DNA from: Tomocerus qinae
Taxonomy: Eukaryota > Arthropoda > Collembola > Entomobryomorpha > Tomoceridae
Assembly: GCA_020055645.1 (NCBI GenBank)
Contig: CM034546.1
Span: forward strand, 84,630,001-84,694,000
Direction of reading: 5' to 3'
Length of the DNA stretch: 64,000 nucleotides
Part shown: positions 1,512 through 64,000 of the stretch, one piece after another
Layout: the number at the start of each line of letters is the position of its first letter
Position numbering within the stretch: the first letter of the stretch is position 1
Translations under genes and position numbers: made by a program
The notes under the pieces: generated by a model
The model's input: only the letters and a program-made list of their open reading frames with translations
Databases searched by the model: none
Told to the model about the DNA's origin: nothing

Positions 1512-3733
1512 ATTTTTATGTCATGTATTTGTGAGCCATGTTCAATGGTAGACAAGGACTTTATGAGTCATGAAAACATATTTCAATATTGCAACTAAAG
1601 TTTTATATCTCATCTACATTTCATTCTCTCAACAGTCTCATACACTATTCACCTATATTAAATGAATGATTATTTAATGAATTAGTATACTTATAAACTG
1701 TCACTCGTATCACTTTATGATTTGGCATTTATTTTTTTGAGATAGGATAAATGTGCCAATTGGCACTTTCATTTTTATCCCCCAACCCTTAGCTAGAGCC
1801 AACAACCTGCTTACTCCTTTTAGTCTATTTTATAGTAGCACTATTATACGATTCTTTGTTTGCATCTTTAATTTTTTAAGAATAACTTTTTATTTTGAGA
1901 TTTGAATTATTTAGTTTTATTTTGTAATTGTAATGAAATGGTTTTGTAAGTGGATCTTAGTAGTTTTACATCCATTAACATACTAAAAATCAATTGACAG
2001 TATTGACACGCACCACCTTTCAATTATGTATTGCATCCTTGGGTCATGATGAAATAGTGACTTGGCTGTGTGTTACTACGACAATTATTAAGCTAGACCA
2101 ACTAACAACTTTGTAGCCCAGTCGTTTCCCCTGTTTTCCCCATAAGGAGCATAGGAAAATAGCCCAAAATCAAATTCTTAAGCGGTACACTCCTTTGAAA
2201 AAGATGCATCGATACTTTCTTCATCGTTTCCTTATTGAAAATTTCACACTTTCGACTTCTTTTTCTCAAAATTTATACTGAAGACCCTGGAGGGTCACAA
2301 GTTTCAGACATGTTATGATTTTGACCCACAAAGGTCACATTCTACCAAAAACTTTGCTATCTTGGTTAAAATTTTTATAACGAATTGACCAATCACTTCC
2401 AATGTCTTCTTCGGTATTCGTTAGTGGGAAGCCATTCTCAGAATTATTTGTCACTTTGTCAACTTTACAGTAAAATTGTTTTCAAACTGAACTGGACGTA
2501 TAAAACAACAGCTTACAGCCACCACTCAAACAAGATAATAGATAAGATACACGTTTGAAGGCAATCTTATGCAAAGCAGATACATTCAGATAAGTTAGTT
2601 ACTGTAAAATGTGTGGGTTGAGGATTGACGGTTGACTTTACTACGATAGATTACGGAATTTCCAAAAAATCTAGTTGTTTTTAGGAGTGAGTTCCTGCCT
2701 GTGGGTGTGTGTACTGGTGATGTAATTTATGTAATAAATGCACTGATTAAAACAACAGAAAGTCTATATTAAATCAATAAAATAGATCGAATTGGACAGA
2801 TACAATATTTTACACCCTTGTCGTAGACAATTACAAGCAGAACTGATTTGGGAACAGATTTTCTCTTCCCTCATTATCATAATAAATCTCACGCATGAGC
2901 ATAACATAATCAAATTTTCAATGACAATCATAATATTTCTCTATGGCTAAACTAGTCTCAACAGTTACCTTTAGCTAAATTCATTATCAGAATACTCACA
3001 ACTGATATTCTTACCTGTCCAAGTTGTAATATGTATGTAGAATGTAGACATGAACTTCTAAGTAAATCTATTCTACAAAAATACCGTATAAAAAAGCTTT
3101 TTTGTATTACTGCCATTGTATTGGTTCTACAGCCTAATAATGTATTTGTTTTTACAGCCCTGAAAAAATAACGCCAACTGTAATTAAAAAAGACTGCCCA
3201 AGTAAATACTTTGTCAGTCTCGTAAAAAGATATCCATTAATGTACGGAAGGGGTTTCTCCGTCTGTCTGGGGACGTGGGTTACTTTGATTCTATGCATCG
3301 TAAAATATCATGTAGTAGCTCTCTTGAAAGAAAACAAATTTTTAAACAACTTTTGTCATACTTAATGACAAGTACCTTAACCCCTGTCTGGGGAAGTGGC
3401 TAACTTTGGTTTTATACATCGTAGGAAGACGTGTAATAGCTCGAAAGAAGACATCCTACTATGCAACATTTTTTATTTCGATTCCTGCTCTACATCTGTG
3501 TTTCCAGTTTACTTGTAGTTCATCTCACAGATATAAGCACTCATGTACTATTTGTATTCGTATTATCAATCCAACGAATCTTTTCCTCTGCTGATGACGA
3601 TAACAAAAGGGAGTTCGCGCTTGGCTGAGCTCGAACTAAAGTGACCACTTACAAAGCTATTGTTGGATGCCCAGAGGAATACAATCGTTGGATTCATAAT
3701 AATGGATAAAAAGTATAGAACACATAGTCTTAC
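1512..3733. other. Non-coding stretch downstream of the MMP exon
   Basis: No convincing ORF, RNA gene or complete transposon was seen. One diverged direct duplication is visible: about 3262-3330 and 3385-3450 share GGGGA(C/A)GTGG, then TACTTTGATT-like, CATCGTA and GTAGCTC-like blocks. The stretch lies in the intron side of the minus-strand MMP exon; the following catalytic-domain exon with the HExxH zinc site was looked for and not found. Confidence 0.5.
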
Positions 3734-4153
3734 CTTGCCCTCCCAGATTTTTTTGAAAGTGAGATTGGCTTCCCTTTCCCAGTACTTGAAGGCCAAGTCA
3801 ATTTCCTTTTGCAGTGTCTTGGGTTTCAAACTAGAGGACGCAAAATGCGTGACCCGGTAGGTCAGAATGCGTTTATTCCAACGAACTCCTGGAGAGGCGT
3901 TTCTTCTCTGTCTTTGTCGACGGAGGAGGGCAGGTTGGTCATCGTCCAGTTCATCTCCCGCCTCAATCCTCTCGTCTCTGTTCCCGCAACGTGGCCGATT
4001 CATCATAACGAGTGTCTCTCTATTTAACTTCCCGTTGGTCGGCAGATGCGATGCTTCTTGGAATTCCTCCACTGCCCCATGCAACTCACCAATCCCCACC
4101 ATATCACTCTCTACCCTCTCTGGCGCCAGGTAGCCAAAATGCGCCAAATAATC
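3734..4153 (-). CDS. Matrix metalloproteinase exon (propeptide end plus catalytic-domain start)
   Basis: One exon of a secreted or membrane zinc endopeptidase that remodels extracellular matrix. Read on the minus strand it is 140 codons, DYLAHFGYLAPE to LTFKKIWEGK. It contains the cysteine switch PRCGNRDE, whose Cys chelates the catalytic zinc in the latent enzyme; a basic furin-type site RRQRQRR for intracellular activation; and the start of the catalytic domain (WNKRILTYRV, AFKYWEREANLTF). Borders fit splicing: a pyrimidine-rich tract ending CAG before GAT TAT at 4153, and AAG|GTAAGA after 3734. The exon is a whole number of codons (phase 0 both sides). Signal-peptide, HExxHxxGxxH and hemopexin exons were not found, so introns must be long or this is an isolated relic. 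Reading frame and splice sites are intact, which favours a real gene. Confidence 0.88.
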
Positions 4154-12054: not shown

Positions 12055-12430
12055 TGTCGCACCTCTTCCTCAAGCTTCATTTGCACATATACCTATACAT
12101 GAGACTATAATGACATGTACAAAATAGTTACCTATGTAGAAGCAATAAATGACTCTTGCTTATCGATGTAATATCAAGTACATCGAAAAGGGTGTTAGGC
12201 GAGGTGGCCCCATGGAAACTGGCCCCCCGGACACCTGGCCCCATGGCAAGTGGCCCTATGGATAGCTGGCACCAAGTGGGAGGAGCTTCCGTGTATAGTC
12301 CGAGCTCTTTAACTTCAATCCCTTTCCCAATCAATGTACTGGCCCTCAGAAGGGCCATTATTACACCACCATATACATACTACGACCCTCTTTGCTCTTT
12401 GGAAAATATGGTGGCCCTTAAAAGGGCCGT

Positions 12431-13557
12431 AAGTCCCCATGCTAAGTCCCATTTTAAATCCCCATGCTAAGTCCCATGTTAAATCCCCATGCTAAGTCCC
12501 ATGTTAAATCCCCATGCTAAGTCCCATGTTAAATCCCCATGCTAAGTCCCATGTTAAATCCCCATGCTAAGTCCCATGTTAAATCCCCATGCTAAGTCCC
12601 ATGTTAAATCCCCATGCTAAGTCCCATGTTAAATCCCCATGCTAAGTCCCATGTTAAATCCCCATGCTAAGTCCCATGTTAAATCCCCATGCTAAGTCCC
12701 ATGTTAAATCCCCATGCTAAGTCCTATGTTAAATCCCCATGCTAAGTCCCATGTTAAATCCCCATGCTAAGTCCCATGTTAAATCCCCATGCTAAGTCCC
12801 ATGTTAAATCCCCATGCTAAGTCCCATGTTAAATCCCCATGCTAAGTCCCATGTTAAATCCCCATGCTAAGTCCCATGTTAAATCCCCATGCTAAGTCCC
12901 ATGTTAAATCCCCATGCTAAGTCCCATGTTAAATCCCCATGCTAAGTCCCATGTTAAATCCCCATGCTAAGTCCCATGTTAAATCCCCATGCTAAGTCCC
13001 ATGTTAAATCCCCATGCTAAGTCCCATGTTAAATCCCCATGCTAAGTCCCATGTTAAATCCCCATGCTAAGTCCCATGTTAAATCCCCATGGTAAGTACC
13101 ATGTTAAATCCCCATGCTAAGTCCCATGTTAAATCCCCATGCTAAGTCCCATGTTAAATCCCCATGCTAAGTCTCCATGTTAAATCCCCATGCTAAGTCC
13201 CATGTTAAATCCCCATGCTAAGTCCCATGTTAAATCCCCATGCTAAGTCCCATGTTAAATCCCCATGCTAAGTCCCATGTTAAATCCCCATGCTAAGTCC
13301 CATGTTAAATCCCCATGCTAAGTCCCATGTTAAATCCCCATGCTAAGTCCCATGTTAAATCCCCATGCTAAGTCCCATGTTAAATCCCCATGCTAAGTCC
13401 CATGTTAAATCCCCATGCTAAGTCCCATGTTAAATCCCCATGCTAAGTCCCATGTTAAATCCCCATGCTAAGTCCCATGTTAAATCCCCATGCTAAGTCC
13501 CATGTTAAATCCCCATGCTAAGTCCCATGTTAAATCCCCATGCCAAGTCCCAATGGT
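12431..13557. repeat. 25-bp minisatellite, left arm of E1
   Basis: About 45 nearly identical copies of a 25-bp unit with core CCCCATGCTAAGTCCC. Single variants include TCCTATG (about 12722), GGTAAGTACC (about 13090) and an extra base near 13173 that shifts phase. The very low divergence implies recent expansion or homogenisation. Confidence 0.95.
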
Positions 13558-13599
13558 AACCTAGCCTAACCTAACCTAACCTAACCTAACCTAACCTAA
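13558..13599. repeat. Interstitial telomere-type CCTAA run at the centre of E1
   Basis: CCTAG followed by seven CCTAA units, the complement of the arthropod-type TTAGG telomere repeat. It lies exactly where the minisatellite changes orientation and is flanked by CCCAATG on the left and CATTGGG on the right. Confidence 0.9.
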
Positions 13600-13872
13600 A
13601 CATTGGGACTTAGCATGGGGATTTAACATGGGACTTAGCATGGGGATTTAATATGGGACTTAGCATGGGGATTTAACATGGGACTTAGCATGGGGATTTA
13701 ACATGGGACTTAGCATGGGGATTTAACATGGGACTTAGCATGGGGATTTAACATGGGACTTAGAATGGGGATTTAACATGGGACTTAGCATGGGGATTTA
13801 ACATGGGACTTAGCATGGGAATTTAACATGGGACTTAGCATGGGGATTTAACATGGGACTTAGCATGGGGAC
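13600..13872. repeat. 25-bp minisatellite, inverted right arm of E1
   Basis: About 11 copies of the left-arm unit in reverse complement (GGGACTTAGCATGGGG). Three units carry single changes (AATATGG, TAGAATGG, GGGAATTT). The arm is four times shorter than the left one. Confidence 0.95.
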
Positions 13873-14279
13873 TTACGGCCCTTTTAAGGGCCACCATATT
13901 TTCCAAAGAGCAAAGAGGGTCGTAGTATGTATATGGTGGTGTAATAATGGCCCTTCTGAGGGCCAGTACATTGATTGGGAAAGGGAATGAAGTTAAAGAG
14001 TTAGGACTATACACGGAAGCTTCTCCCACTTGGTGCCAGCTATCCATAGGGCCACTTGCCATGGGGCCAGGTGTCCGGGGGGCCAGTTTCCATGGGGCCA
14101 CCTCGCCGGACACGATCGAAAAGTACAAATTGCTTTTTAGATAGGGATTTCAGTAAAAAATATCTCAAAACTCCAGGATACTATTTGTTAGGCCAAACCT
14201 CCCTTTCTACAAGCTGTTTATTTATCTGTTTAACTCAACTACTTGCAGTGATTTTTATCTGGGAGTTACGCAGTCCTAC

Positions 14280-21905: not shown

Positions 21906-23505
21906 GGTGTTAGGCGAGGTGGCCCCATGGAAACTGGCCCCCCGGACACCTGGCCCCATGGCAAGTGGCCCTATGGATAGCTGGCACCAAGTTGGAGGAG
22001 CTTCCATGTATAGTCCGAGCTCTTAAACTTCCATCAATTGCTTTCCCATTCAATGTACTGGACCTCAGAAGGGCCATTATTACACCATCACATACATACT
22101 ACGACTTAGCATGGGGATTTAACATGTGACTTAGCATGGGGATTTAACATGGGACTTAGCATGGGGATTTAACATGGGACTTAGCATGGGGATTTAACAT
22201 GGGACTTAGCATGGGGATTTAACATGGGACTTAGCATGGGGATTTAACATGGGACTTAGCATGGGGATTTAACATGGGACTTAGCATGGGGATTTAACAT
22301 GGGACTTAGCATGGGGATTTAACATGGGACTTAGCATGGGGATTTAACATGGGACTTAGCATGGGGATTTAACATGGGACTTAGCATGGGGATTTAACAT
22401 GGGACTTAGCATGGGGATTTAACATGGGACTTAGCATGGGGATTTAACATGGGACTTAGCATGGGGATTTAACATGGGACTTAGCATGGGGATTTAACAT
22501 GGGACTTAGCATGGGGATTTAACATGGGACTTAGCATGGGGATTTAACATGGGACTTAGCATGGGGATTTAACATGGGACTTAGCATGAGACTTAGCATG
22601 GAGATTTAACATGGGATTTAACATGGGACTTAGCATGGGGATTTAGCATGGGACTTAGCATGGGGATTTAACATGGTACTTAGAATGGGACTTAGCATGG
22701 GAATTTAACATGGGACTTAGCATGGGGATTTAACATGAGACTTATCATTGGGATTTAACATGGGACTTAGCATGGGGATTTAACATGGGACTTAGCATGG
22801 GGATTTAACATGGGACTTAGCATGTGGATTTAACATGGGACTTAGCATGGGGATTTAGCATGGGATTTAGCATGGGGATTTAACATGGGACTTAGCATGG
22901 GGATTTAACATGGGACTTAACATGGGACTTAGCATTGGGATTTAACATGGGACTTAACATGGGATTTAGCATGAGGATTTAACATGGGACTTAGCATGAG
23001 GATTTAACATGGGACTTAGCATGTGGATTTAACATAGGACTTAGCATGAGACTTAGCATGGGGATTTAACATGGGACTTAGCATGAGGATTTAACATGGG
23101 ACTTAGCATGAGGATTTAACATGGGACTTAACATGAGGATTTAACATGGGACTTAGCATGTGGATTTAACATGGGGATTTAACATGGGACTTAGGGTGAG
23201 GATTTAACATGGGACTTAGCGTGAGGATTTAACATGGGACTTAAGCATAGGGATTGAGCATGGGATTTAGCATGGCCACCATATTTTCCCAAGAGTAAAG
23301 AGGGTCGTAGTGATGTGATGTGATGGTGTAATAATGGCCCTTCTGATGGTCAGTACATTGAATGGGAAAGGGATTGATGGAAGTTTAAGAGCTCGGACTA
23401 TACACGGAAGCTCCTCCCACTTGGTGCCAGCTATCCATAGGGCCACTTGCCATGGGGCCAGGTGTCCGGGGGGCCAGTTTCCATGGGGCCACCTCGCCGG
23501 ACACG
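21906..23505. mobile_element. Element E2: second MULE-like minisatellite element
   Basis: It has the same terminal arms as E1 (21906-22100 and about 23270-23505) and the same end sequences. It inserted into family C with an 8-bp duplication, GCTGTAAG on the left and GCTGCAAG on the right, one mismatch. Unlike E1, the core is a single array in one orientation, about 46 units of the 25-bp repeat at 22103-23268, and the CCTAA centre and opposite-orientation array are missing. Units up to about 22580 are uniform; from there to 23268 they are heavily mutated, with half-units and TAGCATGAGG variants. Confidence 0.88.
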
Positions 23506-26596: not shown

Positions 26597-27354
26597 ATGT
26601 TGCACTGTTGCACTGTTGCATACAGTTGCACTGTTGCATACAGTTGCACTGTTGCATACAGTTGCACTGTTGCATACAGTTGCACTGTTGCATACAGTTG
26701 CACTGTTGCATACAGTTGCACTGTTGCATACAGTTGCACTGTTGCATACAGTTGCACTGTTGCATACAGTTGCACTGTTGCATACAGTTGCACTGTTGCA
26801 TACAGTTGCACTGTTGCATACAGTTGCACTGTTGCACTGTTGCATACAGTTGCACTGTTGCATACAGTTGCACTGTTGCATACAGTTGCACTGTTGCATA
26901 CAGTTGCACTGTTGCATACAGTTGCACTGTTGCATACAGTTGCACTGTTGCATACAGTTGCACTGTTGCATACAGTTGCACTGTTGCATACAGTTGCACT
27001 GTTGCATACAGTTGCACTGTTGCATACAGTTGCACTGTTGCATACAGTTGCACTGTTGCATACAGTTGCACTGTTGCATACAGTTGCACTGTTGCATACA
27101 GTTGCACTGTTGCATACAGTTGCACTGTTGCATACAGTTGCACTGTTGCATACAGTTGCACTGTTGCATACAGTTGCACTGTTGCATACAGTTGCACTGT
27201 TGCATACAGTTGCACTGTTGCATACAGTTGCACTGTTGCATACAGTTGCACTGTTGCATACAGTTGCACTGTTGCATACAGTTGCACTGTTGCATACAGT
27301 TGCACTGTTGCATACAGTTGCACTGTTGCATACAGTTGCACTGTTGCATACAGT
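26597..27354. repeat. 18-bp minisatellite, about 42 copies
   Basis: Nearly perfect copies of TTGCACTGTTGCATACAG. One unit near 26826 is a 9-bp half-unit (TTGCACTGT repeated). The 18-bp period and lack of stops leave long ORFs open in several frames on both strands; they are periodicity artefacts. Near-zero divergence indicates recent expansion, so copy number is probably variable between individuals. Confidence 0.97.
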
Positions 27355-27488
27355 TGAAAAATCAGCTTTCAATTGTTGGCCTCTGACTGCCAACCTACCT
27401 GATCTTGTGGTAATACTAACATAACATAATCCAGAATATCACTCCCTTATTTCATGGGTTTGAATGCAGCAATCTGTGCGTGAAAGTT

Positions 27489-27507
27489 AAGGTTAGGTTA
27501 GGTTAGG
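27489..27507. repeat. Short TTAGG telomere-type run
   Basis: GGTTAGGTTAGGTTAGG, about three and a half TTAGG units, at the left edge of repeat family F. Confidence 0.7.
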
Positions 27508-32041: not shown

Positions 32042-35000
32042 ATGGATGTACAATGCGCTGTCTGCAAAAATGTGATCACTGAAAGGGCTCATCGACTAAG
32101 CTGCAAATCGTGTAAATTAGTCTTTCACAGGAAAAGTTGCCTACCACCTGTCTCTTCAACAATCTTTGCTGACTATCAAAAGAATGGCTGGACCTGTGAT
32201 GGATGCTTAGAATGGCTTCAAAGAATTCCACCCATATGCCTCTCAGGAGATGAAACGAATGAAAACAACGGTTACAGCTTCAGCTCATCCTTCTTCGAAA
32301 GTTCGCCCAACGTTTCTGTATTGATGACTCCTCACTGTGAAAACAAGTCGCTGGATGTGCAGGCTGAACCAGTATTTCCGAAGAAAGGCTTCAAATATCT
32401 TCATGCCAACGTCAATGGTATTAATTGTAAATCAAGGTTTGATGAAGTGTCCCAATTATTAGTATGTGAAAAAAATGTTCTGATTTGTGGGATAACTGAG
32501 TCAAAGCTTGATGCTGAGGCAGATATAACTTCTCGATTTTACATAAAAGGCTATAACTGCCTCCGTTTTGATAGACTGCACAGGGGTGGAGGGGGAATAT
32601 TGATTTATGTAAATAAAATAGCAGATTACCAGGTGCTTGAATTACCAAGTGCGGTAAATACAAACTTGGAAATTCAGATAGAGGTAGTAAAAGTATATGT
32701 TAAGGGTATAGCCCCAACAATAGTAGCTTACATCTATAATCATCCTAACAAAGTCCTGAAATGTGACTTCTTAAACGTATTCACTGCTCTGCTCCTATAT
32801 TTGAGATCATTTAAGTTTGATAAGGTGATCATGGGGGATTTTAACATCGACCTGCTTGCCTACTCCAATGATGTGCAGAAAATTAAACAACTGGCATCGG
32901 AGTTTGATCTTACACAAAAAATTTGGGGTGCAACCAGAATTACTGAAAATACTGAGTCATTACTTGACCATGTCTATATTACTAATGACTCAGTATTTTC
33001 ACAGGCTGGCCACTTTCCTTTTGCGGGGTCGGACCACCACCTAACCTATGTCATTAGGCAGCAGCGTCGGAGCTACTTTCCCCCAACAGAAATTATTAAT
33101 AGGAACTTGTCAAAAGTAGATTGGGAGGAATTAGCGAAGAACCTCTCGGATGAATTTAAGGAGCAGAGACAAACTGACTTGTCACAATCTACCATCAACC
33201 AATCCTCAGTGGAACATTTGTGGAAGGAATTTGAGCTCAAATCTCTTTCGGTCTTAGACAAAGTAGCGCCTTTAACTAAAAAAATGTGCAAAACACGGCC
33301 CACCCCGTGGTTCAATGCAAAAGTTCGTTCCTCGCTATCTGAAAGAGATAAACTACAGAGGTTAGCTGACAAGTCACGTTGCCCAATTGCTAGGAAAAAC
33401 TTTCGTGTCGCAAAAAATGCTGCTACTAATTGCATTAGAGTAGCAAAAAAGAAATTTTTTATAAATAAGTTTGCACAATATACGGACTCGGTAATGACAT
33501 GGAATACTGTGAATGAGATAACCAATTTCCGCACAAAGCAATGCAGTGGCATTACAAAGCTTGTTACTTCTGAGGGAGAAGTAGTGGAGGACGATGCTGA
33601 GAAATGTGACATTCTGGCCGACTTGTACATTGTCAGGAGGACTGATGATATCCCATCAGATGCTGTTGACAATGCGCTGGCGGACTATTGTGATAATTAT
33701 GTCTATAAGCATCCTCCTGACATTGACATTTCCACCAAAGAGGTAGTGCAGGCTATAACGGAAGTGAAAAAGGGGTCGACAATTAATTCATTACCAATTC
33801 GGCTGTATAAAGAAATCTCTGATGTAATAGCAGTCCCCCTAGCGTTTCTGTTTACGGTTATGTGCTATTCTGCACTCATGCCGAACTATTTTAAATCTGC
33901 GTGTCTAACTCCACTGTACAAGGGTAAAGGTCGGAAAGTTACAGCTAGCAGCTATCGACCTATTGTGGGGTTGCCCTATGCTTGCAAATTGTTTGAGAAG
34001 ATCTTTTTTTGGCGCCTTTCAAAAAATGTTGAGTCACATCTTGATGATCACCAATATGGCTTTAGGAAAAACAGAGGGTGTGAGAATGCGTTGGTAGCAT
34101 TTTCTCAAGATGTTTACAACAGTTTAGACTTAGTAAATGGCCGGACTGTGGCTGTTTTTCTCGACCTAAAAATGGCCTTTGATACGGTTCAGCACAGTCA
34201 CCTAATTTTAAAACTAATAAATAACTTTAAATTAGAGCCATATATGCTAAGATTACTCAGGGAATATTTTAGATTCAGAAAATTTAATATAAAAAACGGA
34301 AAGTTTGTATCACGAGAGTATGAGTTTGAAGCTGGTACTGGGGCTGGATCCTGCTTGGGTCCTATTTTATTCTCATTATACATCAATGACATCGGCAGTG
34401 TAATTGACATAAATTACATAATGTACGCTGATGATGTTTTGCTTTGGACGAGTGGCTCTGATGTGAACGAGTCAATCAAAAAAGTAAATGAAAACCTAAG
34501 CAGGATCCACGAGTGGTGTCAGAAGTACGGGTTAATTATAAGTATTGAGAAAACGAAATTTATGATTCTGCATAAGGTGAATGACACAAAGGTCGATCTA
34601 AATTTAAGTAGTAGTGTAAATGTGAACGGGTCAGAACTGAATAGAGTATATTCCTTTAAGTACCTTGGTGTAATTTTCGATGTAAATATGAACTTTAAGC
34701 AGCACCATGAATATGTTGACAATAGAGTTAAGGCTGCAATTGGAAAACTCTATCGAATAAAAAGGTTAGTTCCTGAGAGAGTTATCTGCATGCTACTTCA
34801 TTCTTTTGTCGTAAGCATTTCGGACTTTGGTATCGTTGTCTGGGCTACTCTGACCCCTTCGCAACTTAAAACCACCGACGATAGCATCTCTAGATTTATA
34901 ACAAACTATTTTTACCCCAAAATGTTCAAACTGAAAAAGGTGTCCTGTAGAAAACGGTCAACTAGATCGCAAAAGTTATTTAATGTCAATCCCATATTAA

Positions 35001-35320
35001 CCAAGTGCAATTTGTTTACAATTCAGGAAAGAAGAGCTCTAGCACTAATAAAAATTGTTTGGAAGAGTCTTTTATGCTCATACCCGGGAACCAAAGGGTG
35101 GTTTGTTAAAGCTAATTCTGCATCTAGGTCAAAGAGTTTTCCAACATGCACCTTATCCTTCTGTAGAACAGCTTTAAAGCGCAAATCTGTACAACATTCA
35201 GCAGTTCTGGCCTGGAATAAACTGCCGAGAAAATATGTGTATGAAGAATTTACGCTAGCTAAGTTATCCGATGAGCACAAAAAATTAATGGCACTGGAAA
35301 GATTAAATGAATTTGTTTAA
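32042..35320 (+). CDS. Intact LINE polyprotein: PHD-type finger, endonuclease, reverse transcriptase
   Basis: A single uninterrupted ORF of 1092 residues. Residues 5-55 form a C4HC3 PHD-like finger (Cys5, 8, 21, 24, His29, Cys33, 52, 55). Residues about 115-335 are an apurinic-type endonuclease with HANVNG, catalytic TESKLD (Glu153), MGDFNID (Asp266, Asn268) and SDHH (Asp331, His332). The reverse transcriptase spans about 540-870, with RPIVGLPYACKLFEKI, FLDLKMAFDT (Asp708), GAGSCLGPILFSLYINDI and YADD (Asp797, Asp798). The C-terminal region ends in a CR1/L2-like SVQHSAVLAWNKLP. All catalytic residues remain, so this may be a competent copy. Two oddities: the finger is fused to the endonuclease ORF instead of sitting in a separate ORF1, and motif B reads GAGS where relatives usually have PQGS. 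It belongs to the CR1/jockey group; the exact clade is uncertain. Confidence 0.95.
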   Translation: MDVQCAVCKNVITERAHRLSCKSCKLVFHRKSCLPPVSSTIFADYQKNGWTCDGCLEWLQRIPPICLSGDETNENNGYSFSSSFFESSPNVSVLMTPHCENKSLDVQAEPVFPKKGFKYLHANVNGINCKSRFDEVSQLLVCEKNVLICGITESKLDAEADITSRFYIKGYNCLRFDRLHRGGGGILIYVNKIADYQVLELPSAVNTNLEIQIEVVKVYVKGIAPTIVAYIYNHPNKVLKCDFLNVFTALLLYLRSFKFDKVIMGDFNIDLLAYSNDVQKIKQLASEFDLTQKIWGATRITENTESLLDHVYITNDSVFSQAGHFPFAGSDHHLTYVIRQQRRSYFPPTEIINRNLSKVDWEELAKNLSDEFKEQRQTDLSQSTINQSSVEHLWKEFELKSLSVLDKVAPLTKKMCKTRPTPWFNAKVRSSLSERDKLQRLADKSRCPIARKNFRVAKNAATNCIRVAKKKFFINKFAQYTDSVMTWNTVNEITNFRTKQCSGITKLVTSEGEVVEDDAEKCDILADLYIVRRTDDIPSDAVDNALADYCDNYVYKHPPDIDISTKEVVQAITEVKKGSTINSLPIRLYKEISDVIAVPLAFLFTVMCYSALMPNYFKSACLTPLYKGKGRKVTASSYRPIVGLPYACKLFEKIFFWRLSKNVESHLDDHQYGFRKNRGCENALVAFSQDVYNSLDLVNGRTVAVFLDLKMAFDTVQHSHLILKLINNFKLEPYMLRLLREYFRFRKFNIKNGKFVSREYEFEAGTGAGSCLGPILFSLYINDIGSVIDINYIMYADDVLLWTSGSDVNESIKKVNENLSRIHEWCQKYGLIISIEKTKFMILHKVNDTKVDLNLSSSVNVNGSELNRVYSFKYLGVIFDVNMNFKQHHEYVDNRVKAAIGKLYRIKRLVPERVICMLLHSFVVSISDFGIVVWATLTPSQLKTTDDSISRFITNYFYPKMFKLKKVSCRKRSTRSQKLFNVNPILTKCNLFTIQERRALALIKIVWKSLLCSYPGTKGWFVKANSASRSKSFPTCTLSFCRTALKRKSVQHSAVLAWNKLPRKYVYEEFTLAKLSDEHKKLMALERLNEFV

Positions 35321-35916: not shown

Positions 35917-36760
35917 AAAAGTTCTTTAGGACATCGTTGTTTTGCTCTTCATGTTGAATTTACTTGTAACTATGGCAACCAAGCTAATAACAACATCCAG
36001 GTTTTGTTTTGTAAAATTCTAAATTGCACCAACTTCTATGTTAGGCTTTTTCATTATGCTACCTTCGATTTTCATCATTTTTAATTAGGTTAGGTTTAAA
36101 AAATGCTAATTGTGACCACGTGCCTTGTTTAATTTTCATCAATTTTACTTAGGTGAGTTTTAGAAAAATGCTAATTGTGAACACGTCGCATGTTCGATTT
36201 CCATCAATTTCAATTAGGTTAGGTTTATAAAATGCTAATTGTGACCACGTCCCATGGTCGATTTCAATCAATTTTAGTTAGGTTAGGTTTAAGAAATGCT
36301 AACTGTGACCTCGTCCCATGTTCGATTTCTATCAATTTTAATTAGGTTAGGTTTAAAAAATGCTAATTGTGACCACGTCCCATGTTCGATTTCAATCAAT
36401 TTTAGTTAGGTTAGGTTTAAAAAATGCTAACTGTGACCTCGTCCCATGTTCGATTTCCATCAATTTTAATTAGGTTAGGTTTAAAAAAATGCTAACTGTG
36501 ACCACGTGCCATGTTCAATTTCCATTAATATTAATTAGGTTAGGTTTTAAGAAATACAAATTTTGACCGCATGCCACTAACCAACTCAAAAATGATGAAA
36601 ATTGAAGTTAGAACAATAAAAACACCCAAAATAGAAGTTAAAGTGCAATTTAGAATTTTACAAAACCAAACCTGGATGTTGTTATTAGCTAGGTTGCCAT
36701 AGTTAAAAGTAAATTCAACATGAAGAGTGAAACAACGGTATCCTAAAGAACTTGTCTTTT
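35917..36760. mobile_element. Inverted-repeat element with 64-bp tandem-repeat core
   Basis: Arms about 35917-36080 and 36575-36760 are inverted copies with moderate divergence: TTCTTTAGGA, CTCTTCATGTTGAATTTACT, TAATAACAACATCCAGG, TTGTAAAATTCTAAATTGCA and ATTTTCATCATTTTT. The core is a 64-bp tandem repeat. The layout is the same as E1 and the palindromic element at 19417. No target duplication was identified. Confidence 0.82.
36064..36560. repeat. 64-bp minisatellite, about 7.5 copies, with TTAGGTTAGG in each unit
   Basis: Each unit contains AATTAGGTTAGGTTTAAAAA, ATGCTAATTGTGACCACGT and CCATGTTCGATTTCCATC. Units are 85-95 percent alike by eye, with CTAACTGTGACCTCG and CTAATTGTGACCACG subtypes partly alternating. 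Confidence 0.9.
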
Positions 36761-45980: not shown

Positions 45981-48900
45981 GGTAACTTTCAATAGCCATT
46001 TCGTAGAACGTTCAAAATCAAAAGATCCACCCTTACAAATGTGGGAACCCTTATGATACTGCCAAAACATAAATACAACTTTCACCTGACCTTAAAAAAT
46101 TGATATAAGTTCAATTTTGTCAGTTGTAACCTTCAATTGCCGACACGGATAACGATCAATATCTAATAACTTACCTTCTTTAATGTAAGAAACCTAATGA
46201 CATTTCCAAAATTGAAAGCAGTACTTTCCTATCCTTAAGACTTTCACCAGAACATAAAAAATTGATATAACTTCAACTTTGTCGGTAATAACTTGCAATT
46301 GCCAACACGAATAACGATCAGAATCTTACTAATTGCCTTCTTTATTGCAAGAAACCTAATGATATTTCCAAAATTGAAAGCAGTACTTTCTTATCCTTAA
46401 GACTTTCACCAGAACATAAAAAATTGATACAAATTCAACTTTTTCGGTTGTAACTTTCAATTGCCAACACGGATAATGATCAGAATCTTACTACTTGCCT
46501 TCTTTATTGTAAGAAACCTAATGATACTTCCAAAATTGAAAGCAGTATTTTCCTATCCTTAAGACTTTCACCTGAACATAAAAAATTGATATAACTTCAA
46601 CTTTGTCGGTTGTAACTTTCAATTGCCACCATATATAGCGTTCAAAATCAAGCAACCCACCTTAAATTATATATGGAACGTGGCGATACTTCCAAAATTG
46701 AAAGCAGTACTTTCCTATACTTAAGACTTTCACCTGAACATAAAAAATTGATACAAATTCAACTTTTTCGGTTGTAACTTTCAATTGCCAACACGGATAA
46801 TGATCAGAGTCTTACTACTTGGCTTCTTTATTGTAAGAAACCTAATGATATTTCCAAAATTGAAAGCAGTACTTTCCTATCCTTAAGACTTTCACCTGAA
46901 CATAAAAAATTGATATACGTTCAACTTTGTCGGTTGTAACTTTCAATTGCCAACATGTATAACATTCAAAACCAAACAATCCACGTTTCATTATAAAAGA
47001 AATGTGGCCATACTTCCGAAACGGAAAGCAGTACTTTCCTATCCTTAAGACTTTCACCTGAACATAAAAAATTGATATAACTTCAACTTTGTCGGTTGTA
47101 ACTTTCAATTGCCAACATGTGTAACGTTCAAAATCAAACAACCCACCTCCCATTATAAAAGAAATGTGGCGATACTTCCGACACGGAAAGCAGTACTTTC
47201 CTATCCTTAGGACTTTCACCTGAACATAAAAAATTGATATAACTTCAACTTTGTCGGTAATAACTTGCAATTGCCAACACGGATAACGATCATAATCTTA
47301 CTAATTGCCTTCTTTATTGCAAGAAACCTAATGATATTTCCAAAATTGAAAGCAGTACTTTCTTATCCTTAAGACTTTCACCAGAACATAAAAAATTGAT
47401 ACAAATTCAACTTTTTCGGTTGTAACTTTCAATTGCCAACACAAATAATGATCAGAATCTTACTACTTGCCTTCTTTATTGTAAGAAACCTAATGATACT
47501 TCCAAAATTGAAAGCAGTATTTACCTATCCTTAAGACTTTCACCTGAACATAAAAAATTGATATAAGTTCAACTTTGTCGGTTGTAACTTTCAATTCCCC
47601 ACACGGATAATGATCAGAGTCTTACTACTTGGCTTCTTTATTGTAAGAAACCTAATGATATTTCCAAAATTGAAAGCAGTACTTTCCTATCCTTAAGACT
47701 TTCACCTGAACATAAAAAATTGATATACGTTCAACTTTGTCGGTTGTAACTTTCAATTGCCAACATGTATAACGTTCAAAACCAAACAATCCACCTTCCA
47801 TTATAAAAGAAACGTGGCGATACTTCCGAAACGGAAAGCAGTACTTTCCTATCCTTAAGACTTTCACCTGAACATAAAAAATTGATATAAATTCAACTTT
47901 GTCGGTTGTAACTTTCAATTGCCAACATGTGTAACGTTCAAAATCAAACAACCCACCTCCCATTATAAAAGAAATGTGGCGATACTTCCGACACGGAAAG
48001 CAGTACTTTCCTATCCTTAGGACTTTCACCTGAACATAAAAAATTGATATAACTTCAACTTTGTCGGTAATAACTTGCAATAGCCAACACGGATAACGAT
48101 CAGAATCTTACTAATTGCATTCTTTATTGCAAGAAACCTAATGATATTTCCAAAATTGAAAGCAGTACTTTCTTATCCTTGAGACTTTCACCAGAACATA
48201 AAAAATTGATACAAATTCAACTTTTTCGGTTGTAACTTTCAATTGCCAACACGGATAATGATCAGAATCTTACTACTTGCCTTCTTTATTGCAAGAAACC
48301 TAATGATACTTCCAAAATTGAAAGCAGTACTTTCCTATACTTAAGACTTTCACCTGAACATAAAAAATTGATACAAATTCAACTTTGTCGGTTGTAACTT
48401 TCAATTGCCAACACGGATAATGATCAGAGTCTTACTACTTGGCTTCTTTATTGTAAGAAACCTAATGATATTTCCAAAATTGAAAGCAGTACTTTCCTAT
48501 CCTTAAGACTTTCACCTGAACATAAAAAATTGATATACGTTCAACTTTGTCGGTTGTAACTTTCAATTGCCAACATGTATAACGTTCAAAACCAAACAAT
48601 CCACCTTCCATTATAAAAGAAACGTGGCGATACTTCCGAAACGGAAAGCAGTACTTTCCTATCCTTAAGACTTTCACCTGAACATAAAAAATTGATATAA
48701 ATTCACCTCTTTCGGTTGTAACTTTCAATTGCCAACACGGATAATGATCAGAATCTTACTACTTGCCTTCTTTATTGTAAGAAACCTAATGATATTTCCA
48801 AAATTGAAAGCAGTAATTTCCTATCCTTAAGACTTTCACCTGAACATAAAAAATTGATATAACTTCAACTTTGTCGGTTGTAACTTTCAATTGCCAACAT

Positions 48901-51900
48901 GTGTAACGTTCAAAATCAAACAACCCACCTCCCATTATAAAAGAAATGTGGCGATACTTCCGACACGGAAAGCAGTACTTTCCTATCCTTAGGACTTTCA
49001 CCTGAACATAAAAAATTGATATAACTTCAACTTTGTCGGTAATAACTTGCAATTGCCAACACGGATAACGATCAGAATCTTACTAATTGCCTTCTTTATT
49101 GCAAGAAACCTAATGATATTTCCAAAATTGAAAGCAGTACTTTCTTATCCTTAAGACTTTCACCAGAACATAAAAAATTGATACAAATTCAACTTTTTCG
49201 GTTGTAACTTTCAATTGCCAACACGGATTATGATCAGAATCTTACTACTTGCCTTCTTTATTGTAAGAAACCTAATGATACTTCCAAAATTGAAAGCAGT
49301 ATTTTCCTATCCTTAAGACTTTCACCTGAACATAAAAAATTGATATAAGTTCAACTTTGTCGGTTGTAACTTTCAATTGCCACCATGTATAGCGTTCAAA
49401 ATCAAGCAACCCACCTTCCATTATATATGGAACGTGGCGATACTTCCAAAATTGAAAGCAGTACTTTCCTATACTTAAGACTTTCACCTGAACATAAAAA
49501 ATTGATACAAATTCAACTTTTTCGGTTGTAACTTTCAATTGCCAACACGGATAATGATCAGAGTCTTACTACTTGGCTTCTTTATTGTAAGAAACCTAAT
49601 GATATTTCCAAAATTGAAAGCAGTACTTTCCTATCCTTAAGACTTTCACCTGAACATAAAAAATTGATATACTTTCAACTTTGTCGGTTGTAACTTTCAA
49701 TTGCCAACATGTATAACGTTCAAAACCAAACAATCCACCTTCCATTATAAAAGAAACGTGGCGATACTTCCGAAACGGAAAGCAGTACTTTCCTATCCTT
49801 AAGACTTTCACCTGAACATAAAAAATTGATATAACTTCAACTTTGTCGGTTGTAACTTTCAATTGCCAACATGTGTAACGTTCAAAATCAAACAACCCAC
49901 CTCCCATTATAAAAGAAATGTGGCGATACTTCCGACACGGAAAGCAGTACTTTCCTATCCTTAGGACTTTCACCTGAACATAAAAAATTGATATAACTTC
50001 AACTTTATCGGTAATAACTTGCAATTGCCAACACGGATAACGATCAGAATCTTACTAATTGCCTTCTTTATTGCAAGAAACCTAATGATATTTCCAAAAT
50101 TGAAAGCAGTACTTTCTTATCCTTAAGACTTTCACCAGAACATAAAAAATTGATACAAATTCAACTTTTTCGGTTGTAACTTTCAATTGCCAACACGGAT
50201 AATGATCAGAATCTTACTACTTGCCTTCTTTATTGTAAGAAATCTAATGATACTTCCAAAATTGAAAGCAGTATTTTCCTATCCTTAAGATTTGTCGGTT
50301 GTAACTTTCAATTGCCACCATGTATAGCGTTCAAAATCAAGCAACCCACCTTCCATTATATATGGAACGTGGCGATACTTCCAAAATTGAAAGCAGTACT
50401 TTCCTATACTTAAGACTTTCACCTGAACATAAAAAATTGATACAAATTCAACTTTTTCGGTTGTAACTTTCAATTCCCCACACGGATAATGATCAGAGTC
50501 TTACTACTTGGCTTCTTTATTGTAAGAAACCTAATGATATTTCCAAAATTGAAAGCAGTACTTTCCTATCCTTAAGACTTTCACCTGAACATAAAAAATT
50601 GATATACGTTCAACTTTGTCGGTTGTAACTTTCAATTGCCAACATGTATAACGTTCAAAACCAAACAATCCACCTTCCATTATAAAAGAAACGTGGCGAT
50701 ACTTCCGAAACGGAAAGCAGTACTTTCCTATCCTTAAGACTTTCACCTGAACATAAAAAATTGATATAACTTCAACTTTGTCGGTTGTAACTTTCAATTG
50801 CCAACATGTGTAACGTTCAAAACCAAACAATCCACCTTCCATTATAAAAAAAACGTGGCGATACTTCCGAAACGGAAAGCAGTACTTTCCTATCCTTAAG
50901 ACTTTCACCTGAACATAAAAAATTGATATAACTTCAACTTTGTCGGTAATAACTTGCAATAGCCAACACGGATAACGATCAGAATCTTACTAATTGCCTT
51001 CTTTATTGCAAGAAACCTAATGATATTTCCAAAATTGAAAGCAGTACTTTCTTATCCTTAAGACTTTCACCAGAACATAAAAAATTGATACAAATTTAAC
51101 TTTTTCGGTTGTAACTTTCAATTGCCAACACGGATAATGATCAGAATCTTACTACTTGCCTTCTTTATTGCAAGAAACCTAATGATACTTCCAAAATTGA
51201 AAGCAGTACTTTCCTATACTTAAGACTTTCACCTGAACATAAAAAATTGATACAAATTCAACTTTTTCGGTTGTAACTTTCAATTGCCAACACGGATAAT
51301 GATCAGAGTCTTACTACTTGGCTTCTTTATTGTAAGAAACCTAATGATATTTCCAAAATTGAAAGCAGTACTTTCCTATCCTTAAGACTTTCACCTGAAC
51401 ATAAAAAATTGATATACGTTCAACTTTGTCGGTTGTAACTTTCAATTGCCAACATGTATAACGTTCAAAACCAAACAATCCACCTTCCATTATAAAAGAA
51501 ACGTGGCGATACTTCCGAAACGGAAAGCAGTACTTTCCTATCCTTAAGACTTTCACCTGAACATAAAAAATTGATATAACTTCAACTTTGTCGGTTGTAA
51601 CTTTCAATTGCCAACACGGATAACGATCAGAATCTTACTAATTGCCTTCTTTATTGCAAGAAACCTAATGATATTTCCAAAATTGAAAGCAGTACTTTCT
51701 TATCCTTAAGACTTTCACCAGAACAAAAAATTGATACAAATTCATCTTTTTCGGTTGTAACTTTCAATTGCCAACACGGATAATGATCAGAATCTTACTA
51801 CTCTCCTTCTTTATTGCAAAAAACCTAATGATACTTCCAAAATTGAAAGCAGTACTTTCCTATACTTAAGACTTTCACCTGAACATAAAAAATTGATGCA

Positions 51901-54900
51901 AATTCAACTTTGTCGGTTGTAACTTTCAATTGCCAACACGGATAATGATCAGAGTCTTACTACTTGGCTTCTTTATTGTAAGAAACCTAATGATATTTCC
52001 AAAATTGAAAGCAGTACTTTCCTATCCTTAAGACTTTCACCTGAACATAAAAAATTGATATACGTTCAACTTTGTCGTTTGTAACTTTCAATTGCCAACA
52101 TGTATAACGTTCAAAACCAAACAATCCACCTTCCATTATAAAAGAAACGTGGCGATACTTCCGAAGCGGAAAGCAGTACTTTCCTATCCTTAAGACTTTC
52201 ACCTGAACATAAAAAATTGATATAAATTCACCTCTTTCGGTTGTAACTTTCAATTGCCAACACGGATAATGATCAGAATTATACTACTTGCCTTCTTTAT
52301 TGTAAGAAACCTAATGATATTTCCAAAATTGAAAGCAGTAATTTCCTATCCTTAAGACTTTCACCTGAACATAAAAAATTGACATAAATTCAACTTTGTC
52401 GGTTGTAACTTTCAATTGCCAACATTAATAATGTTCAAAACCAAACAATCCACGTATCATTATAAAAGAAATGTGGCCATACTTCCGAAACGGAAAGCAG
52501 TACTTTCCTATCCTTAAGACTTTCACCTGAACATAAAAAATTGACATAAATTCAACTTTGTCGGTTGTAACTTTCAATTGCCAACATGTATAACGTTCAA
52601 AACCAAACAATCCACGTTTCATTATAAAAGAAATGTGACCATACTTCCGAAACGGAAAGCAGTACTCCTATCATAAGACTTTCACCTGAACATAGATATT
52701 GATATAACTTCAACTTTGTCGGTTGTAACTTTCAATTGCCAACATGTGTAACGTTCAAAATCAAACAACCCACCTCCCATTATAAAAGAAATGTGGCGAT
52801 ATATCCGACACGGAAAGCAGTACTTTCCTATCCTTAGGACTTTCACCTGAACATAAAAAATTGATATAAAATTTCAACTTTGTCGGTAATAACTTGCAAT
52901 TGCCAACACGGATAACGATCAGAATCTTACTAATTGCCTTCTTTATTGAAAGAAACCTAATGATATTTCCAAAATTGAAAGCAGTACTTTCTTATCCTTA
53001 AGAGTTTCACCAGAACATAAAAAAAATTGATACAAATTTAACTTTTTCGGTTGCTTTCAATTGCCAACACGGATAATGATCAGAATCTTACTACTTGCCT
53101 TCTTTATTGTAAGAAACCTAATGATACTTCCAAAATTGAAAGCAGTATTTTCCTATCCTTAAGACTTTCACCTGAACATAAAAAATTGATATAAGTTCAA
53201 CTTTGTCGGTTGTAACTTTCAATTGCCACCATGTATAGCGTTCAAATCAAACAACCCACCTTCCATTATATATGGAACGTGGCGATACTTCCAAAATTGA
53301 AAGCAGTACTCCTATACTTAAGACTTTCACCTGAACATAAAAAATTGATACAAATTCAACTTTTTCGGTTGTAACTTTCAATTCCCAACACGGATAATGA
53401 TCAGAGTCTTACTACTTGGCTTCTTTATTGCAAGAAACCTAATGATATTTCCAAGTGAAAGCAGTACTTTCCTATCCTTAAGACTTTCACCTGAACATAA
53501 AAAATTGATATACGTTCAACTTTGTCGGTTGTAACTTTCAATTGCCAACATGTATAACGTTCAAAATCAAACAACCCACCTTCCATTATAAAAGAAATGT
53601 GGCGATACTTCCGAAACGGAAAGCAGTACTTTCCTATCCTTAAGACTTTCACCTGAACATAAAAAATTGATATAAATTCAACTTTGTCGGTTGTAACTTT
53701 CAATTGCCAACATGTATAACGTTCAAAATCAAACTTATTACCTCCCATTATAAAAGAAATGTGGCGATACTTCCGAAACGGAAAGCAGTATTTTCTTATC
53801 CTTAAGACTTTCAGCTGAACATAAAAAATTTAAATAAGTTCAACACCGTCGGTTGTAACTTTCAATTGCCAACACGGATAACGATCAGAATCTTACAACT
53901 TACATTCATCAATGTTAGAAACCAAATGATCTTTCCAAAATTGAAAGCAGTACTTTCTTATCCTTAAGACTTTCACCTGAACATAAAAAATTGACATAAG
54001 TTCAACTTTTTCGGTTGTAACTTTCAATTGCCAACACGGATAACGATCCGAATCTTACTACTTGCCTTCTTTATTGTAAGAAATCTAATGATACTTCCAA
54101 AATTGAAAGCAGTACTTTCCTATCCTTAAGACTTTCACCTGAACATAAAAAATTGATAAAATTTCAACTTTGTCGGTTGTAACTTTCGATTGTCAACATG
54201 TTTAACGTTCAAAATCAAACAACCCACCTTCCATTATTAAGGAATCGTGGCGATACTTCCGAAATTGAAAGCAGTACTTTCCTATACTTAAGACTTTCAC
54301 CTGAACATAAAAAATTGATACAAATTCAACTTTTTCGGTTGTAACTTTCAATTGCCAACACGGATAATGATCAGAGTCTTACTACTTGGCTTCTTTATTG
54401 TAAGAAACCTAATGATATTTCCAAAATTGAAAGCAGTACTTTCCTATCCTTAAGACTTTCACCTGAACATAAAAAATTGATAAAATTTCAACTTTGTCGG
54501 TTGTAACTTTCAATTGCCAACATGTATAACGTTCAAAATCAAACAACCCACCTTCCATTATAAAAGAAACGTGGCGATACTTCCGAAACGGAAAGCAGTA
54601 CTTTCCTATCCTTAAGACTTTCACCTGAACATAAAAAATTGATATAACTTCAACTTTGTCGGTTGTAACTTTCAATTGCCAACATGTGTAACGTTCAAAA
54701 CCAAACAATCCACCTTCCATTATAAAAGAAAGGTGGCGATACTTCCGAAACGGAAAGCAGTACTTTCCTATCCTTAAGACTTTCACCTGAACATAAAAAA
54801 TTGATATAACTTCAACTTTGTCGGTAATAACTTGCAATAGCCAACACGGATAACGATCAGAATCTTACTAATTGCCTTCTTTATTGCAAGAAACCTAATG

Positions 54901-57900
54901 ATATTTCCAAAATTGAAAGCAGTACTTTCTTATCCTTAAGACTTTCACCAGAACATAAAAAATTGATACAAATTCAACTTTTTCGGTTGTAACTTTCAAT
55001 TGCCAACACGGATAATGATCAGAATCTTACTACTTGCCTTCTTTATTGCAAGAAACCTAATGATACTTCCAAAATTGAAAGCAGTACTTTCCTATACTTA
55101 AGACTTTCACCTGAACATAAAAAATTGATACAAATTCAACTTTTTCGGTTGTAACTTTCAATTGCCAACACGGATAACGATCAGAATCTTATAACTTGCC
55201 TTCTTTATTGTAAGAAACCTAATGATATTTCCAAAATTGAAAGCAGTACTTTCCTATCCTTAAGACTTTCACCTGAACATAAAAAATTGATAAAATTTAA
55301 ACTTTGTCGGTTGTAACTTTCAATTGCCAACATGTATAACGTTCAAAATCAAACAACCCACCTTCCATTATAAAAGAAATGTGGCGATACTTCCGAAACG
55401 GAAAGCAGTACTTTCCTATCCTTAAGACTTTCACCTGAACATAAAAAATTGATAAAATTTAAACTTTGTCGGTTGTAACTTTCAATTGCCAACATGTATA
55501 ACGTTCAAAATCAAACAACCCACCTTCCATTATAAAAGAAATGTGGCGATACTTCCGAAACGGAAAGCAGTACTTTCCTATCCTTAAGACTTTCACCTGA
55601 ACATAAAAAATTGATATAACTTCAACTTTGTCGGTAATAACTTGCAATAGCCAACACGGATAACGATCAGAATCTTACTAATTGCCTTCTTTATTGCAAG
55701 AAACCTAATGATATTTCCAAAATTGAAAGCAGTACTTTCTTATCCTTAAGACTTTCACCAGAACATAAAAAATTGATACAAATTCAACTTTTTCGGTTGT
55801 AACTTTCAATTGCCAACACGGATAATGATCAGAATCTTACTACTCTCCTTCTTTATTGCAAAAAACCTAATGATACTTCCAAAATTGAAAGCAGTACTTT
55901 CCTATACTTAAGACTTTCACCTGAACATAAAAAATTGATGCAAATTCAACTTTGTCGGTTGTAACTTTCAATTGCCAACACGGATAATGATCAGAGTCTT
56001 ACTACTTGGCTTCTTTATTGTAAGAAACCTAATGATATTTCCAAAATTGAAAGCAGTACTTTCCTATCCTTAAGACTTTCACCTGAACATAAAAAATTGA
56101 TATACGTTCAACTTTGTCGTTTGTAACTTTCAATTGCCAACATGTATAACGTTCAAAACCAAACAATCCACCTTCCATTATAAAAGAAACGTGGCGATAC
56201 TTCCGAAGCGGAAAGCAGTACTTTCCTATCCTTAAGACTTTCACCTGAACATAAAAAATTGATATAAATTCACCTCTTTCGGTTGTAACTTTCAATTGCC
56301 AACACGGATAATGATCAGAATTATACTACTTGCCTTCTTTATTGTAAGAAACCTAATGATATTTCCAAAATTGAAAGCAGTAATTTCCTATCCTTAAGAC
56401 TTTCACCTGAACATAAAAAATTGACATAAATTCAACTTTGTCGGTTGTAACTTTCAATTGCCAACATTAATAATGTTCAAAACCAAACAATCCACGTATC
56501 ATTATAAAAGAAATGTGGCCATACTTCCGAAACGGAAAGCAGTACTTTCCTATCCTTAAGACTTTCACCTGAACATAAAAAATTGACATAAATTCAACTT
56601 TGTCGGTTGTAACTTTCAATTGCCAACATGTATAACGTTCAAAACCAAACAATCCACGTTTCATTATAAAAGAAATGTGGCCATACTTCCGAAACGGAAA
56701 GCAGTACTTTCCTATCCTTAAGACTTTCACCTGAACATAAAAAATTGATATAACTTCAACTTTGTCGGTTGTAACTTTCAATTGCCAACATGTGTAACGT
56801 TCAAAATCAAACAACCCACCTCCCATTATAAAAGAAATGTGGCGATATATCCGACACGGAAAGCAGTACTTTCCTATCCTTAGGACTTTCACCTGAACAT
56901 AAAAAATTGATATAATTTCAACTTTGTCGGTAATAACTTGCAATTGCCAACACGGATAACGATCAGAATCTTACTAATTGCCTTCTTTATTGAAAGAAAC
57001 CTAATGATATTTCCAAAATTGAAAGCAGTACTTTCTTATCCTTAAGACTTTCACCAGAACATAAAAAATTGATACAAATTTAACTTTTTCGGTTGTAACT
57101 TTCAATTGCCAACACGGATAATGATCAGAATCTTACTACTTGCCTTCTTTATTGTAAGAAACCTAATGATACTTCCAAAATTGAAAGCAGTATTTTCCTA
57201 TCCTTAAGACTTTCACCTGAACATAAAAAATTGATATAAGTTCAACTTTGTCGGTTGTAACTTTCAATTGCCACCATGTATAGCGTTCAAAATCAAGCAA
57301 CCCACCTTCCATTATATATGGAACGTGGCGATACTTCCAAAATTGAAAGCAGTACTTTCCTATACTTAAGACTTTCACCTGAACATAAAAAATTGATACA
57401 AATTCAACTTTTTCGGTTGTAACTTTCAATTCCCAACACGGATAATGATCAGAGTCTTACTACTTGGCTTCTTTATTGTAAGAAACCTAATGATATTTCC
57501 AAAATTGAAAGCAGTACTTTCCTATCCTTAAGACTTTCACCTGAACATAAAAAATTGATATACGTTCAACTTTGTCGGTTGTAACTTTCAATTGCCAACA
57601 TGTATAACGTTCAAAACCAAACAATCCACCTTCCATTATAAAAGAAACGTGGCGATACTTCCGAAACGGAAAGCAGTACTTTCCTATCCTTAAGACTTTC
57701 ACCTGAACATAAAAAATTGATATAACTTCAACTTTGTCGGTTGTAACTTTCAATTGCCAACATGTGTAACGTTCAAAATCAAACAACCCACCTCCCATTA
57801 TAAAAGAAATGTGGCGATACTTCCGACACGGAAAGCAGTACTTTCCTATCCTTAGGACTTTCACCTGAACATAAAAAATTGATATAACTTCAACTTTGTC

Positions 57901-63900: not shown

Positions 63901-64000
63901 CGATACTTCCAAAATTGAAAGCAGTACTTTCCTATACTTAAGACTTTCACCTGAACATAAAAAATTGATACAAATTCAACTTTTTCGGTTGTAACTTTCA
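45980..64000. repeat. 162-bp satellite array with 972-bp higher-order repeat
   Basis: About 111 tandem monomers of 162 bp. Common to all are GAAAGCAGTACTTTCCTATC, CTTAAGACTTTCACCTGAAC, ATAAAAAATTGATA and TCGGTTGTAACTTTCAATTG. Monomer classes differ in the first half: B-type (CACGGATAA, GATCAGAATCTTACTA) and A-type (ATGTATAACGTTCAAAACC, TTCCGAAACGGAAAG), plus a C-type with TATATATGGAACG. The order B1-B2-C-B3-A1-A2 recurs as a six-monomer unit of about 972 bp, sometimes five monomers (810 bp, no C). The left edge is the most diverged and the array leaves the window at 64000. Because 162 is 54 codons, long minus-strand ORFs cross several monomers; they end at class-specific stops and are not called as genes. 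A centromeric or pericentromeric satellite is plausible. Confidence 0.95.
59505..61890. repeat. Indel-rich satellite segment, possible unpolished assembly join
   Basis: Monomers here carry many 1-6-bp insertions and deletions (for example GATAAATGAAATCAGATG for GATAATGATCAGAG, GTCCGGTTTGTAAC for GTCGGTTGTAAC), while those on both sides are clean. The change is abrupt at both ends. The right-hand clean part (61890-64000) repeats 56290-58401 almost exactly. Confidence 0.8.

Follow-up and report, generated by a model that had tools for sequence, protein, structure and literature searches.

Introduction

Foldback DNA transposons whose arms are built of tandem repeats have been described in several animals. 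Among them, the Mutator/Foldback group (Tm1, Rehavkus and Tetris) is closest to the element analyzed here, which we call winA, and as far as the accessible parts of the published reports go, Tm1 is the closest described family. Like the family of winA, Tm1 of root-knot nematodes has foldback arms made of a variable number of tandem repeats, outer ends that bear short asymmetric motifs, mostly 9-bp target duplications and numerous non-autonomous copies (PMC3169594). It differs in its repeat unit of approximately 14 bp and in its end motifs, and the available portion of that report places either a histone-hairpin motif or a putative MULE transposase in the middle of the element and mentions no telomere-type run there (PMC3169594). 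Rehavkus shares 9-bp duplications and long inverted repeats with the family, and its minisatellite adjoins one terminal repeat, which the one-armed copies described below also show (PMC6446971). According to the same partial source, this minisatellite precedes the 3' terminal repeat; here, among the run-bearing copies read whole, it lies on one side in 5 and on both sides in 6. Rehavkus-1_TC carries tandem arrays within inverted termini, as winA does (PMC10218199, in part). Rehavkus is described as encoding a PHD-finger transposase, and none was found in the family sequence read here (PMC6446971).

Tetris/DAIBAM of Drosophila virilis is likewise a non-autonomous foldback element with internal tandem repeats, 8- to 10-bp duplications, a variable middle domain and no autonomous copy found; unlike the family of winA, it has repeats of approximately 220 bp and a long flanking domain, and the accessible part of the report describes no telomere-type core (PMC4079207). 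The excerpted account of Galileo tells of long repetitive termini that grow, shrink and take up inner sequence, as here, but Galileo has a P-superfamily transposase and a repeat region of approximately 210 bp (PMC3573991). The initial annotation of this DNA had stated that no described element has such a layout. That statement is too broad as regards the asymmetric ends, the tandem-repeat arms and the 9-bp duplications, all of which Tm1 has, and it stands as regards the TTAGG core: in the portions of the literature available to us we found no telomere-type core in any DNA transposon, foldback or other, which does not prove that none has been described. From the evidence given below, winA is probably a foldback DNA transposon that is non-autonomous, belongs most likely to the Mutator superfamily (MULE) and has an inherited (TTAGG)n middle domain.

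Results

Structure of winA

The window, that is, the whole 64,000-nucleotide stretch of DNA that was analyzed, corresponds to C1:84630001-84694000 in an assembly of 334 Mb and 115 contigs. winA is a 1924-bp element at 12191-14114 of the window and is bounded on both sides by the perfect 9-bp duplication ATCGAAAAG, exactly where it had first been annotated (Table 1). The inverted ends, originally given as 240 bp, are approximately 250 bp long and 97.6% identical across 249 aligned bases, as expected of the long terminal repeats of a MULE. They are not equivalent at their tips, which corrects the earlier description: one terminus starts with CGTGTCCGG (C-type) and the other with GGTGTTAGG (T-type). 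Sub-repeats of 15 bp/31 bp lie inside the left terminal repeat (12205-12274).

Table 1. Features of winA and position of the second family copy (positions in the window)
Feature	Position	Strand	Evidence
Target-site duplication ATCGAAAAG, left	12182..12190		Direct reading
Terminal inverted repeat, GGTGTTAGG-type (T-type) end	12191..12440	+	Inverted-repeat search, alignment
25-bp minisatellite arm, 44.9 copies, unit TAAATCCCCATGCTAAGTCCCATGT	12430..13552	+	Tandem Repeats Finder
Middle domain, (CCTAA)n/(TTAGG)n run at head-to-head junction	13557..13599	-	Direct reading, Tandem Repeats Finder
25-bp minisatellite arm, inverted, 11.0 copies	13599..13875	-	Tandem Repeats Finder
Terminal inverted repeat, CGTGTCCGG-type (C-type) end	13865..14114	-	Inverted-repeat search, alignment
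Target-site duplication ATCGAAAAG, right	14115..14123		Direct reading
Second family copy (winB)	21906..23505		Tandem-repeat and end reading

The two minisatellite arms meet head to head, and their measured copy numbers agree with the approximately 45 and 11 units counted before. An inverted-repeat tool recovered 12192-12701 and 13604-14113 as inverted arms that are 98% complementary. At the junction, the flanks CCAATG...CATTGG enclose the middle domain, whose run is TTAGG when read from the CGTGTCCGG end. The seven CCTAA units first noticed at the inversion centre are exact by eye, and Tandem Repeats Finder, which allows errors, reports 8.6 TAACC copies. Its long inverted arms, the tandem repeats within them and the middle domain place winA in the foldback group. 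When the 576 bases at 13300-13875 were folded as a single DNA strand, they formed one hairpin with the CCTAA run in the loop (z = -47 relative to 100 shuffled sequences). The whole window was also scanned for Rfam families and tRNAs, with no matches.

winA belongs to a family with two distinct end types

The window contains a second copy, winB, with the same ends as winA, 47.0 minisatellite copies in a single orientation, no TTAGG run and an 8-bp target duplication with one mismatch. Searching the genome with the inverted end, as the initial annotation had proposed, uncovered further copies: the first DNA search with the left terminal repeat gave at least 45 matches, and 40 of 187 candidates were scored. 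Both ends were read in 17 copies, a set from which L009, L024, L025 and L027 were left out (one end missing or incomplete), as were L001-L008, which coincide with the window or with later loci. A duplication of 8-9 bp flanks 16 of the 17 copies (10 perfect 9-bp, 3 perfect 8-bp and 3 with one mismatch), L018 being the copy without one. All 17 have one C-type (CGTGTCCGG) and one T-type (GGTGTTAGG) end, with a single base changed near the T end in each of L022 and L023. The family has inserted repeatedly, with target duplications of approximately 9 bp, and the length of its copies varies greatly through the minisatellite.

A census was made by searching the genome with two end patterns and collecting head-to-head pairs less than 8 kb apart. 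T-type rows were removed from the C list, and the C-type row C3:42147437 from the T list. With 100 of the 119 matches to the C-type pattern listed, so that more C-type ends with 2 mismatches may exist, the census comprises at least 57 paired ends, 283-6062 bp long, and another 36 of the listed ends had no partner. Among the listed pairs, 56 of 57 are C/T and one is C/C (p = 8e-16 against even odds), an asymmetry of the outer ends like that of Tm1. The two end types thus pair near-strictly, which suggests a transposase complex that requires one end of each type. A stricter claim, that all pairs are C/T, had held in a first list (38/38) and was dropped when the fuller census included the C/C pair. 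This pair, at C1:63577328-63578881, has one base change shared by both ends and a TTAGG-type match inside; it is possibly a recombinant copy.

Contig C1, which makes up 42% of the assembly, holds 43 of the 57 listed pairs (p = 5e-7) and 71 of 93 exact ends, paired ends not being independent of each other. This excess could be explained by insertion bias, sex linkage or retention. The letters flanking L024 (C16:21614) and L027 (C1:13634819) match, which suggests a single insertion present on both contigs, perhaps as an alternative haplotype.

A sister copy, L051 (C1:54252850-54255640), has both end types of the family, continuing GAAGTGGCACCATGG, and head-to-head arms made of a different minisatellite with a unit of approximately 40 bp. 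Its reading revealed no TTAGG run and, by eye, no target duplication, and it has no coding capacity, the longest listed ORF being 63 aa. The L051 unit contains GGTGTTAG, which equals the first bases of the T-type end. This match, noticed post hoc, hints that the units might act as extra transposase sites, as has been proposed, in the parts of the reports available, for Galileo and Tetris.

The TTAGG run is inherited with the family

Tabulating the carriers of CCTAA, another step proposed at the outset, revealed the run in 11 of the 17 copies (winA, L013, L014, L016, L019, L020, L021, L022, L023, L026 and L028); winB, L010, L011, L015, L017 and L018 lack it. Relative to the C end, its orientation is the same in 10 of these 11 copies and flipped in L020. 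CCCAATG precedes the run in 8 of the 11 (L020 read reversed), and in L021-L023 the flank is CTAGTTGGTTAGATTAGG or TTAGTTGGTTAGATTAGG. In the genome, the pattern CCCAATGGTTAGGTTAGG (at most 1 mismatch) has 13 matches, 12 of them within family pairs, and the pattern CTAGTTGGTTAGATTAGG (at most 2 mismatches) has 33, 16 of them within pairs, the latter pattern also giving chance matches (12 in the reversed control). By these 2 patterns and one plain TTAGG x4 match, the run is present in at least 29 of the 57 listed pairs, a minimum because divergent runs would escape the patterns; no run was detected by them in the other 28. About half of the paired copies therefore contain a run, and in these its flanks are conserved and its orientation is mostly the same. 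It is an inherited part of the family, not a one-off accident, and the family is a clear case of transposons that carry and spread a telomere-type run.

Contig C105 begins with CCTAA-strand arrays, which read inward from 24 to 1291 with gaps, and this makes TTAGG a plausible telomere motif for the species. No TTAGG arrays occur at the four contig ends sampled from C1 and C2. TTAGG x3 was absent from 150 kb taken from 15 sampled interior stretches and from 20 dinucleotide-chain simulations of the window, and the window itself has one other TTAGG x3 run, at 27490. TTAGG x4 has 845 overlapping matches in the 334-Mb genome and was rejected as a family marker for being too common. When the first 100 of these 845 matches, equivalent to the first 54 Mb of C1, were clustered, 2 of 38 clusters fell in family pairs (enrichment p = 2.5e-4). 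Because the family carries the run, some interstitial telomere-type sites, such as these 2 of 38 clusters, can be explained by transposition and not by break repair or the fusion of chromosomes.

The shared flanks favour a common origin of the runs, whether by telomere capture or by microsatellite growth. The captured telomere fragment suggested initially fits best of the options then considered, with the amendment that the run was inherited and not acquired at the winA locus. It is also quite possible, although somewhat short of an even chance, that the run grew as a microsatellite from a local GGTTAG in an ancestral copy, its likeness to a telomere being incidental; this would be compatible with our main reading of winA. 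Such growth would agree with the abundance of TTAGG x4 across the genome, with the degenerate runs of several copies (GGTTAGATTAGG, GGATAGG) and with the lack of a run in the sister-group copy L051. Nothing decisive speaks against it, as the flanks and orientation common to the runs indicate a single origin, telomeric or otherwise.

Superfamily assignment

We searched the whole genome with the PF10551 profile and obtained 59 MULE-domain matches, several of them in long frames (up to 489 aa), none of which lies less than 18 kb from any of the 150 listed family ends. The proposed check of the copies for a MULE transposase thus brought up none near the listed ends, and reading within family copies turned up no transposase either. 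Interiors were read in the 6.1-, 5.4- and 4.5-kb copies, that of the 3.8-kb copy being left out. For the 6.1-kb and 5.4-kb copies (L049 and L050), reading covered 3.0 and 2.0 kb of the interior, respectively, and showed minisatellite. In the 4.5-kb copy (L052), the 0.8 kb read resembles reverse transcriptase by eye and gave no Pfam match in three frames. In L009, a family end is followed by retroelement-like sequence (DUF5641, E = 3.7e-29; integrase core below the cut-off), and a second family end was looked for there and not found.

With no transposase found in the stretches read and no MULE near the listed ends, membership in Mutator rests on duplication length and architecture. The earlier label "Mutator-like" accordingly holds for the anatomy, namely the duplications and inverted ends, and gains nothing from the transposase, none having been found with these ends. 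Duplications of 8-9 bp occur also in the hAT, P and Merlin superfamilies. A foldback element of one of these (P/Galileo-like, hAT or Merlin), with convergent minisatellite arms, is unlikely but deserves consideration: perfect duplications of 8 bp flank 3 of the 17 copies, none of the listed family ends was accompanied by a MULE gene, and Galileo, in the part of its description available, is foldback-like with a P-type transposase (PMC3573991). Against this, the commonest duplication is 9 bp (10 of 17 copies, perfect), and the MULE foldback Tm1, as partially reported, has the same combination of asymmetric ends, arms of tandem repeats and 9-bp duplications (PMC3169594). Mutator target duplications are 8-11 bp long according to the section of the source consulted (PMC6446971), a range that includes those of the 16 copies with 8-9 bp. 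We therefore keep the assignment of winA to the Mutator superfamily as the most likely one.

Layouts of the copies and orientation of the run

The 28 run-bearing C/T pairs fall into two groups. In 18 of them the run is located 158-235 bp from the T end, at the inner edge of the terminal repeat, and in the other 10, winA included, it is located farther in. The copies of the first group that were read whole (5 of 18: L014, L021-L023 and L026) are one-armed, with minisatellite on the C side only, and those of the second (6 of 10: winA, L013, L016, L019, L020 and L028) are two-armed, with minisatellite on both sides. None of the 18 pairs with the run near the T end has it flipped, against 3 of the 10 with it farther in (Fisher p = 0.037, from small numbers and with a distance cut-off picked after seeing the data); L020 was read base by base and the other two flips are pattern positions. 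The flips match what recombination between inverted arms would be expected to produce. A midpoint-rooted TIR tree, whose root is pulled by the long branches of the truncated L015 and L016, does not settle the order of the one- and two-armed forms. The coexistence of one-armed, two-armed and flipped copies makes the origin of foldback arms testable.

The suggestion that the run seeded the palindrome is not needed: 18 copies have the run beside one terminal repeat, and head-to-head arms do not need a run because L051 has them without one. We propose that a MULE transposase supplied in trans would recognize one C-type and one T-type end, excise the element and reinsert it with a 9-bp stagger, and that minisatellite units would expand via slippage or unequal exchange. 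The starting form may have been one-armed (CGTGTCCGG end, minisatellite, TTAGG run, GGTGTTAGG end), and the two-armed form may have arisen as an inverted minisatellite appeared beyond the run, a direction drawn from unrooted forms. The second arm could come, for example, from repair synthesis or conversion between arms; the run would then stand at the palindrome centre and sometimes be flipped by recombination between the arms. A bolder proposal is that the (TTAGG)n core is functional and selected, the hairpin loop attracting telomerase or telomere-binding proteins to DNA in hairpin or excised form and so protecting the transposon or priming repair, whereby the family would make two-armed copies and scatter interstitial telomere-type runs; we consider this quite improbable.

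Still less probable is the healed break that had been offered for this locus, in which a break inside the element at the winA site would have been healed by telomerase and the healed end fused with an inverted copy. The arrays of C105 make TTAGG a plausible telomere motif, an end fusion could leave a palindrome with a telomere run at its centre, and the same event could have taken place in a distant ancestor. But the run recurs with the same flanks, mostly in one orientation, at many insertions, which is why we reject the healing of a break at this locus; moreover, winA has a perfect duplication at both sides and because of this most likely arrived whole. An assembly artefact, that is, a palindrome collapsed or falsely inverted, is hardly credible, since, although long palindromes and minisatellites are difficult to assemble and the structure is known from the assembly, five more of the wholly read copies (L013, L016, L019, L020 and L028) share the two-armed layout with a central run, each with its own duplication (one mismatch in L019).

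Other features of the window

The last 18 kb of the window (46078-64000, up to its end) consist of a 162-bp satellite array. A 64-bp tandem repeat (7.8 copies, 36064-36568), whose units contain TTAGGTTAGG, is separate from winA. An 18-bp minisatellite, GTTGCACTGTTGCATACA, has 42 copies at 26607-27356 and is open in several frames on both strands. A 1092-aa open frame at 32042-35320 has endonuclease/phosphatase and reverse-transcriptase Pfam domains, as in non-LTR retrotransposons, and the minus strand at 3569-4147 contains a fragment of a Matrixin-type metalloprotease (Peptidase_M10).
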